Shown here: one piece after another, positions 31,608 through 35,269 of the stretch
How the letters are laid out: the number at the start of each line of letters is the position of its first letter
Position numbering within the stretch: position 1 is the stretch's first letter
NCBI RefSeq assembly: GCF_900100655.1
Contig: NZ_FNCE01000005.1
Span: forward strand, 1-64,000
Length of the DNA stretch: 64,000 bases
Reading direction: 5' to 3'
From: Limimonas halophila
GTDB lineage: Bacteria; Pseudomonadota; Alphaproteobacteria; Kiloniellales; Rhodovibrionaceae
The notes under the pieces: model-generated
Database searches by the model: none
Told to the model about the DNA's origin: nothing
The model's input: only the letters and a program-made list of their open reading frames with translations
Position numbers and translations under genes: made by a program

Positions 31608-31823
31608 CTATGTGTTGTCGCTGCTGGAATTGGACCCGTTCTCCGGGCGGCTGGATGCGGTCCCGCCGGACGCGGCTGGCGGGCGCTGCACGCTGCTGCC
31701 GCCCACCGGCGGCGTGTAATCCGTCGGCTTCGCGTGAGATTGCGGCCGATAGCCCTTTTCAAGCGGCTGATAGCCCTCCTCCAGCCGGCCCTTGGAAGCT
31801 TTCGCAGTCTCATCCTTTGCCAT
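31608..31823 (-). CDS. Small Tyr/Pro-rich protein linked to DUF6338
   Basis: The 71-residue product is hydrophilic and low in complexity: KGRLEEGYQPLEKGYRPQ contains two GYxP units, then KPTDYTPPVGGSSVQRPP and a Ser/Asn-rich end. Its start at 31823 overlaps the DUF6338 gene by 14 nt, and its ribosome binding site (GGGAGGAAA) lies inside that gene, so translation is coupled. Small GYQP-type proteins next to DUF6338 genes are, as far as I recall, a recurrent pair, but no function is established. The start five codons and more upstream (31853) is less likely. Confidence 0.7.
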   Translation of the reverse strand: MAKDETAKASKGRLEEGYQPLEKGYRPQSHAKPTDYTPPVGGSSVQRPPAASGGTASSRPENGSNSSSDNT

Positions 31824-32442
31824 CGTCGTTTCCTCCCACGCCGATAAACTCAATATATGCGATGTCTTGGTCTTTGATCAAGATTCCTTTCCCTTCCGGC
31901 CCCATTTGCCACGTCCTATCGTCTTCTATATGAAATATTTGCTCAATATAGAGATCGCGCTCACTGGGATCTGAAGAGGCAAACGATTTTGGCCCAAAAA
32001 AGCCGCCAACAAAACTCCCATCATGGAACGTTATCAGAACCCAATTTGCCGTGCTGATCCGCGGGAAGACATAGTCCCACGCAGCCGGCACTGGATGCAC
32101 CGGATGAAGTCCCATTTTTCGAAAAGCTCGTTCGGACCAACCGTGCTGTGTGTCATAGCTGGCGAGGATACCGAGCGCGATCGGGGATAAAAACACCACG
32201 ACGAACCAGATCAGCACGGACAACCACGTATTGGTGTTCGCGTCCTCGAACGCGGACCAGATGACGATCAGCCACGACCATACTGCGAAATTAACCGCCC
32301 CGAGCGCGATTAGCTCGATCAAAATTCGATTTGCACGTTCCATTCGACCTGTTGTAAATTTTGACCTAATATAATATATTATAAAGCCTGGAATGATAAA
32401 TGATACAATAAGAAAAAGGTTGGATTGTAGAGTTGGTAACAT
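31810..32442 (-). CDS. DUF6338 family membrane protein
   Basis: The 210-residue protein has three hydrophobic segments: LFLIVSFIIPGFIIYYI near the N-terminus, LGAVNFAVWSWLIVIW, and LSVLIWFVVVFLSPIALGIL. A cytosolic part follows with AWDYVFPRISTANWVLI, TFHDGSFVGGFFGPKSFAS, YIEQIFHIEDD and KGILIKDQDIAYIEFIG, the pattern of DUF6338 proteins. The gene is visibly AT-richer than its neighbours, suggesting transfer. It starts 18 bp after the Xre gene and overlaps the small GYQP gene, giving a three-gene operon. The function is unknown. Confidence 0.8.
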   Translation of the reverse strand: MLPTLQSNLFLIVSFIIPGFIIYYIRSKFTTGRMERANRILIELIALGAVNFAVWSWLIVIWSAFEDANTNTWLSVLIWFVVVFLSPIALGILASYDTQHGWSERAFRKMGLHPVHPVPAAWDYVFPRISTANWVLITFHDGSFVGGFFGPKSFASSDPSERDLYIEQIFHIEDDRTWQMGPEGKGILIKDQDIAYIEFIGVGGNDDGKG

Positions 32443-32460
32443 TCAGAAAAACTCGCTTGT

Positions 32461-32718
32461 TTAAAAGGGCACCTGTTTCGCGCCCTTGCGCAACCGAACC
32501 CCCGGTTCCTCGCCGTCGAGGAAGGTGACGCCCGCGTTTTCCAGGGCGGCGCGGATGGCTTCGGCGCTGAGGCGGCGGGGCTGGGTTTTGCCGCGTTCCA
32601 GGCCGCGCACCGTGACCGTGCCGACGTGCGCGGCGTCGGCCAATTCCTGCTGGCTCCAATCCAAGAGCCCGCGCGCGGCGCGGCACTGTTCCGCCGTGAT
32701 GATCGGGACGTGAGCCAT
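32461..32718 (-). CDS. Xre-family HTH transcriptional regulator
   Basis: The 85-residue protein is one helix-turn-helix domain: ITAEQCRAARGLLDWSQQELADAAHVGTVTVRGLERGKTQPR (residues about 6-48). The end (SAEAIRAALENAGVTFLDGEEPGVRLRKG) is typical of short alphaproteobacterial XRE regulators. The ATG at 32718 begins the conserved part; there is no clear ribosome binding site, and a GTG 14 codons upstream is possible. It heads the operon with DUF6338 and probably represses it. Its base composition looks native, unlike the DUF6338 gene. Confidence 0.85.
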   Translation of the reverse strand: MAHVPIITAEQCRAARGLLDWSQQELADAAHVGTVTVRGLERGKTQPRRLSAEAIRAALENAGVTFLDGEEPGVRLRKGAKQVPF

Positions 32719-32839
32719 CGCTTTTCGACGCTGCCGTTCGTTTGCCACGCCCCTAGGCGGTTGACGGCGCGCTGTCCAATCGGCCATGCTCAAACCCGTC
32801 GATCAACGACGGATTCTATGTTCAGCAGCGGGTTTGGTG

Positions 32840-33124
32840 ATGGCGGATGCGGCGTGTGCGCGGGACGGCGCGGGCGAGGACTCGGGCGGCGGCGACTCGG
32901 GCGCCGGGCGGACGCCGGAGGCCACCATCCGCGCGATGGACGACGCCGTCAGCGAGGCCCTGGCGGCGCTGGAGGCCGTGGAGGTGCTGGCGGACCGCGT
33001 GGACGCGGCCGCCGCGCGCGCCGGCGCGACGGGCGTGCCGAGCCTGGGCCTGCTCGCGGCCGTGCGCTGCCTGCGCGCCCATCTGGACACCGTGGATGCC
33101 CGGCTCACGGCCGACGGTGGTTGA
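32840..33124 (+). CDS. Hypothetical protein
   Basis: The product of 94 residues has an acidic, Gly-rich start followed by a helical region (ATIRAMDDAVSEALAALEAVEVLADRV...). The heptad-like spacing suggests a coiled coil. I do not recognise a family. The ATG at 32840 is a guess; an in-frame ATG at 32786 would add 18 residues. It is convergent with the MoeB-like gene, 15 bp away, and divergent from the Xre gene. Confidence 0.45.
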   Translation: MADAACARDGAGEDSGGGDSGAGRTPEATIRAMDDAVSEALAALEAVEVLADRVDAAAARAGATGVPSLGLLAAVRCLRAHLDTVDARLTADGG

Positions 33125-34044: not shown

Positions 34045-34288
34045 GGCATCTTTGGTCGTGAGAGACCCGTACGTCAGCCGCGCGACGCCGGTGTCGCGTG
34101 ACAGAGGGCTCCAAGGATCATCCTTGGTCCAAAGATCATCCTTGGTCGTGAGGAACCCATTCGTCGCCGCGAGACGCCGGTGTCAAATGACAGATGTTTC
34201 CAAAGATCATCTTTGGTCGTGAGAGACCCGTACGTCAGCCGCGCGACGCCGGTGTCGCGTGACAGACGGTTCCAAGGATCATCCTTGG
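34045..34288 (+). repeat. Three tandem copies of the palindromic dispersed repeat
   Basis: Copies at about 34045-34104, 34129-34193 and 34198-34265, plus a final palindrome at 34272-34288. The unit is a 17-nt palindrome (CCAAAGATCATCTTTGG or CCAAGGATCATCCTTGG), TCGTGAGAGACCC, about 20 variable bases, ACGCCGGTGTCG and a TGACAGA end. The last palindrome directly abuts the cysK stop codon (complement of 34289-34291). The gap 33947-34044 shows nothing else. Confidence 0.9.

Positions 34289-35269
<981 letters not shown>

Follow-up and report, generated by a model that had tools for sequence, protein, structure and literature searches.

A membrane protein of the DUF6338 family and a small GYxP protein form a conserved gene pair with a possible role in phage defence

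The window, which is the whole stretch of 64,000 nucleotides of Limimonas halophila DNA analysed here, contains a compact cassette of three genes (Table 1). The initial annotation described them as minus-strand genes separated by 18 bp at one junction and overlapping by 14 nt at the other, and the coordinates agree with this description. Both of its domain assignments are borne out by profile searches: the central protein matches PF19865 (DUF6338) with 135.7 bits and an E-value of 2e-39, above the curated cut-off of 26.5 bits, as the sole match of this family in the L. halophila genome, and the regulator matches HTH_3 with an E-value of 6.8e-8. The small protein carries the motifs GYQP and GYRP and has a Pro-rich middle part; searches of Pfam, PADLOC, PHROGs and NCBIfam with E-values up to 1 give no family for it. 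Within the same limit, PADLOC-DB 2.0.0 returns zero families for the DUF6338 protein and the small protein.

Table 1. Genes of the cassette in the window
Feature	Position	Strand	Remarks
XRE/HTH_3 regulator, 85 aa	32461-32718	-	18 bp upstream of the DUF6338 gene
DUF6338 (PF19865) membrane protein, 210 aa	31810-32442	-	predicted three membrane helices and Sm/LSm-like beta-barrel
Small GYxP protein, 71 aa, probably disordered	31608-31823	-	start 14 nt inside the DUF6338 gene

The base composition of the cassette is uneven. The DUF6338 gene has a G+C content of 47.4%, compared with 70.5% for the whole window and a mean of 70.8% (SD 2.6, lowest 64.1) for the reference ORFs, which are 34 mechanically picked, non-overlapping window ORFs of at least 150 aa, DUF6338 excluded. 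The earlier remark that this gene is AT-rich relative to its surroundings is thus correct. Since the small gene is slightly low (65.7%) and the XRE gene ordinary and native-looking (69.4%), the DUF6338 gene alone deviates. The two flanking genes scanned are of the TenA/PQQC and ThiF types, and therefore no defence island is seen at the window locus as far as these two flanks extend; a CD-NTase gene, the mark of CBASS, is absent from the cassette and its scanned flanks, six proteins in all. In the six relatives searched for an empty site, the ThiF-type gene is present in all six and the TenA-type gene in five, and as the two are located on different contigs or far apart, they provide no clean empty site. 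A 112-aa plus-strand ORF (32786-33124), with no Pfam family above the cut-off, adjoins the XRE gene, and repeats are located at 34080-34350, downstream of a cysK-like gene, with recurring SLVVRDP-type frames in the ORF translations.

Comparison with other loci of the family defines which of the three genes belong together. The loci (designated L with a number) were collected from the genomes of relatives, plasmid and phage records (ten opened), species genomes (27 loci) and viral contigs (36 loci), and their 79 distinct DUF6338 ORFs were reduced to 69 by clustering at 85% identity. Outside the window, a small Pro-rich or GYxP ORF directly follows DUF6338 in 65 of these 69 non-redundant loci, and the same rule is satisfied by one of 364 control ORFs (150 aa or longer) from the same loci. 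If the GYxP motif itself is required, the values are 54 of 69 and none of 364. The rule, formulated after a first inspection of the same loci, accepts an ORF of 35-130 aa that starts between -90 and +350 nt of the DUF6338 stop codon and either contains the GYxP motif or is Pro-rich and disordered. Excluded before the count were two repeat fetches (L006, L044), the window itself (L001), six loci below the DUF6338 profile used (L038-L042, L045) and two with in-frame stops (L057, L067), although the partner is visible in both of the latter. The four misses comprise two loci with a GYxP partner that fails the filter (L028, L053), one with a weak candidate (L031) and one with none (L036). The small ORF of the window follows the same pattern, being Pro-rich, GYxP-bearing and directly downstream of DUF6338.

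A second sample, drawn from the phylum, gives a partner in 11 of 15 loci by a similar filter and in 14 of 15 when the frames are read by eye. Duplicates (L126, L146, L147) and a broken frame (L136) were excluded from it; one locus was counted with the C-terminal part of DUF6338 only (L137) and another is doubtful (L133), and this sample is not fully independent, because L128 and L130 are similar to first-sample loci. The spacing within the pair is tight: the first partner begins a median of 3 nt downstream of the DUF6338 stop codon, and within 30 nt in 55 of 61 cases, overlaps counted. The number of partner copies varies; under a stricter filter, 48 of 70 loci have one copy, ten have two, three have three and nine have none. 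The conserved unit is a tightly spaced two-gene unit of DUF6338 and a small GYxP protein, and there is hardly any room for doubt that this pair is real and conserved. The conserved neighbour proposed for DUF6338 genes at the outset was accordingly found, in the form of the small ORF.

The XRE gene behaves differently. Searched with the window XRE protein, an XRE-like ORF occurs at one of 70 DUF6338 loci, with none within 1.5 kb in the 69 others, a query that detects close relatives and would let distant HTH genes escape. Outside this count, an annotated HTH gene lies 320 nt upstream of DUF6338 in L024, beside a RelE-type gene. The XRE gene was rejected as a member of the module on the basis of the 1/70 frequency, and the window copy is judged to be an accidental neighbour or a local regulator outside the conserved unit, which may still drive transcription of the cassette. 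Therefore, of the layout first proposed, consisting of a regulator, a membrane effector and a small partner, the small protein stands as a true companion and the regulator does not.

The small proteins share more than a position. G[YHFW]xP occurs in 67 of 77 of them, with GYQP alone present 84 times, and a PP..K/R tail in 68 of 77; remote members of DUF6338 have poly-Pro variants in the downstream partner position. In an all-against-all BLAST comparison, 54 of the 77 have a match among the partners of other loci at 40% identity and 60% coverage, and 31 of these 54 match a partner whose DUF6338 is less than 45% identical. The small protein of the window is 52% identical over 48 aa to the partner of L047, from a Rokuibacteriota MAG (E 3e-4), and a similarity search with it in 37 genomes other than its own gives nothing below an E-value of 0.02. 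Judged from these sequences, the small proteins are relatives, beyond mere look-alikes. Their similarity follows that of DUF6338, with a correlation of 0.71 that none of 2000 permutations reaches (61 loci). Such correlated divergence is expected for co-inheritance and is also compatible with binding between the two proteins.

A probable example of the pair has already been described in part. In Pseudomonas stutzeri, three Pro-rich peptides of less than 50 aa (SEP1, SEP2 and SEP5) share a predicted operon with a DUF6338 gene, were detected by mass spectrometry and are well expressed, with 44-114 spectra, while no peptide of the DUF6338 protein itself was detected (PMC10433244). The peptides are presented there as not conserved beyond the species and possibly de novo; in contrast to the present analysis, no motif, defence context or family is described in the text available (PMC10433244). 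The present survey suggests that these peptides belong to the GYxP family. In the literature collection searched, there is nothing further on DUF6338 and nothing on PF19865; a search for GYQP lists mostly SARS-CoV-2 work among its matches, and searches on BstA, type IV Thoeris and Sm-like membrane defence give nothing on DUF6338 among the matches listed. A widespread gene pair has been overlooked because one half is a domain of unknown function and the other is short, simple in sequence and often unannotated. Provided that the survey holds, the peptides regarded as de novo genes of a single lineage are members of a conserved family with a fixed partner. The claim of an undescribed system gains support, with the module now consisting of DUF6338 and its small partner.

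The AlphaFold2 model of DUF6338, built with 51 sequences (pLDDT 87.8, pTM 0.74), contains three long helices (residues 5-29, 37-66 and 72-100), in agreement with the three-helix membrane protein anticipated earlier, followed by a further helix and a presumably cytosolic barrel (about 119-202). In this predicted model, the invariant residues P18, G19 and P87 are placed in the membrane helices, W122 in the pre-barrel helix, and G147 together with an S153-F154-S156 patch in the barrel. A helix preceding a small beta-barrel is the order of the Sm fold, which DUF6338 thus presents in the predicted model. The best VIA match, to a Sm protein from archaea, covers 72 residues at an rmsd of 2.0 with a Z of 8.5, just exceeding the background of 7-8. 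Apart from entries such as 7xm1 and 2rb6, which are not Sm, the Foldseek matches listed are mostly chains of Sm or LSm proteins or of the spliceosome core, with no match at an E-value of 0.001 or less. By sequence, ten DUF6338 C-domains give no LSM or Hfq match at E-values up to 10; the best match to any Sm family is SM-ATX in one of the ten, with an E-value of 0.15 and 12.8 bits against a cut-off of 29.8, and a PDB sequence profile search returns no relative. The predicted barrel is therefore taken as a resemblance of fold: DUF6338 would share with Sm/LSm proteins the architecture of residues 119-202, but it is membrane-anchored and reaches no Sm family above the curated cut-off by sequence. 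In a modelled read-through fusion of DUF6338 into its partner, the GYxP tail has a pLDDT of 55-62 and remains undocked (one chain, thin partner depth); with its tail unordered, that model leaves direct binding unsupported.

The distribution of the DUF6338 family is patchy. With the own genome included, PF19865 matches at E-values up to 0.001 occur in 5 of the 61 genomes from the order, in 19 of 385 sampled across the class and in 26 of 398 sampled across the phylum; above the curated cut-off, the numbers in the same samples are 4, 15 and 20 genomes. Among the species-genome loci, the record titles extend to Armatimonadota, Rokuibacteriota, cyanobacteria, Planctomycetota, Binatia, Acidobacteria, Cohnella, Paenibacillus, Rhodothermales and Nitrospirota, and the gene is present in 16 plasmid records and 36 contigs of the viral collection.

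Several copies directly adjoin genes of phage defence. A same-strand ORF of at least 75 aa is located within 150 nt upstream of DUF6338 in 26 of 81 loci and is lacking in 55, according to a script that missed L016 and some of whose ORFs look spurious. Type IIG restriction-modification (RM) genes stand directly upstream on the same strand in L050 (with MmeI domains), L052 and L058. Also upstream on the same strand are SEFIR and CAP12-type TIR genes (L064), IetS (L071, E 6e-277), ThiF-JAB (L023) and a reverse transcriptase of uncertain defence type (L027). In L060, a caspase preceded by a ThsB-type TIR lies upstream; L062 has a caspase-type ORF that is near-identical to it over the first 60 aa, and since either locus may be a contaminant, the two are counted as one lineage. 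Their records are titled Planctomycetaceae and Limimaricola, for which a contaminant contig or a very recent transfer is possible. A CBASS cyclase and then an annotated SLATT gene precede DUF6338 in L016, and in L018, behind Tn7-type genes, DUF6338 and its small gene are followed by a TIR gene and an annotated caspase gene. The upstream ORFs of L020 (807 aa), L063, L106 and L108 gave nothing or next to nothing in the scans. The pair can directly adjoin CBASS or TIR-caspase genes (L016, L018, L060), but it differs from such operons in that neither of the two scanned window flanks is of these kinds and in that many copies lack a co-directional neighbour upstream.

A PADLOC scan (1e-10) of neighbours within 4 kb, covering 188 proteins of 32 plasmid, phage and species-genome loci, gave matches to 60 models with 92 of the proteins and to 161 with the other 96. 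The control, 102 neighbours from a distance of 5.5 kb or more, matched 35; the comparison is crude, because many models can be matched by a single protein and defence-type genes occur in the distant set too. The bias towards mobile elements and defence islands, whose absence had been named beforehand as speaking against the proposal, is found, as measured against this crude control. The association first suggested for the cassette holds for many copies elsewhere, and no defence island is visible around the window copy.

Some prophage copies occupy a site of apparently exchangeable cargo. In the E. coli ECONIH2 prophage, the pair is located between a DEAD/DEAH (SNF2-type) helicase gene and a VRR-NUC gene, on the opposite strand. 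At least 80% of this prophage query is present in 3 of 5426 E. coli genomes and some of it in 72; a second prophage query has no match among the E. coli genomes. Among seven other genomes inspected, the same site contains BstA once and, twice each, a 236-aa protein, a 265-aa protein or Rha/Arc-type genes. The BstA occupant, in one E. coli genome, is recognised by PADLOC with an E-value of 1.4e-115, and the 236-aa and 265-aa proteins have no PADLOC match. BstA is a prophage abortive-infection protein (PMC8585504). It shares with the pair the cargo site between the SNF2-type helicase and the VRR-NUC/PDDEXK-type gene in that one genome, but it consists of a single protein, which has a KilA-N-like domain, together with a DNA element for self-immunity (PMC8585504), and no relation to the pair is seen. 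The same helicase (over at least 458 aa) adjoins DUF6338 in 12 of the 36 viral loci, a group that includes near-duplicates. Among five loci chosen from these 12, the DUF6338 proteins are 49-59% identical in nine of ten pairs and 80% in the tenth, while the helicases are 92-97% identical; divergent DUF6338 inside such conserved flanks suggests the exchange of alleles within a conserved frame. The ECONIH2 prophage with the pair (L109:7417-11886) also has annotated TIR and SIR2 genes.

Because the two genes are almost always together and often stand beside phage-defence genes, the pair looks like an overlooked anti-phage module. Taken from context alone, a role in defence is likely. The fuller reading, a two-gene module that acts against phages at the membrane and travels in prophages, plasmids and defence operons, is given a probability of about 0.5. 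How such a module would act is a tentative best guess, namely a gated membrane effector. Sm proteins oligomerise, and DUF6338 may do so through its Sm-like domain. The GYxP proteins would bind DUF6338 as multivalent ligands and hold or gate it until phage infection, sensed alone or via an upstream sensor (TIR, cyclase or RM gene), provides the trigger; the released DUF6338 would then perturb the membrane and the infection would be aborted. The most far-reaching form of this idea is rather doubtful: a new class of phage defence in which a membrane-anchored Sm-like ring is gated by tandem disordered GYxP microproteins, self-sufficient in prophages and an interchangeable output of unrelated defence operons. 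If the survey holds, one membrane module is common to many defence contexts and is directly testable.

Other readings overlap with each other and with this one. The presence of DUF6338 in the plasmid records and viral contigs, together with well-expressed small peptides and no detected peptide of DUF6338 in P. stutzeri (PMC10433244), would suit a toxin-antitoxin or addiction pair, in which a membrane toxin is countered by abundant small antitoxins and the pair is kept on plasmids and prophages for its own maintenance; repeated close linkage to unrelated defence genes and the cargo site shared with BstA fit defence better, and such a pair is considered unlikely. The linked genes themselves leave room for a membrane tether or scaffold, which anchors neighbouring defence enzymes or holds phage DNA at the membrane without killing the cell. 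Type IIG RM and IetS are among the linked enzymes and are not known to need a membrane effector, and a disordered multivalent partner with an Sm-like fold would suit a scaffold. The variety of linked genes is nevertheless too large for a single docking surface, and a co-directional gene upstream is lacking in many copies, which makes this function improbable.

A self-contained prophage cassette at a swapping cargo site is also what superinfection exclusion predicts, with DUF6338 blocking the entry of phage DNA at the inner membrane and the small proteins tuning it. This by itself would not explain the copies beside defence genes on contigs of many phyla, and it is regarded as quite unlikely. 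A housekeeping membrane function, for example in stress or envelope homeostasis with the mobile copies as hitch-hikers, is very unlikely in view of the patchy presence of the family and the allele exchange in prophages, even though L003, the remote L004, L005 and L037 have housekeeping-type genes beside DUF6338 (translations read by eye). The anti-phage module is therefore retained as the best explanation.

Individual copies show some further features. The DUF6338 frame is broken or partial, being split or interrupted by an in-frame stop, in L136/L146, L137/L147, L057 and L067. In L004 and L005, from two genomes of the order, a remote DUF6338 relative followed by a small Pro-rich ORF is located between ABC-transporter-ATPase-like and ligase-like genes, according to the translations. 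In L003 (1182-2708), DUF6338 and two small GxQP-type ORFs lie between nuoK-like and nuoL-like genes, again from the translations, and the final residues of the nuoK-like product are repeated just past the insert, as if the cassette had duplicated the end of its target.
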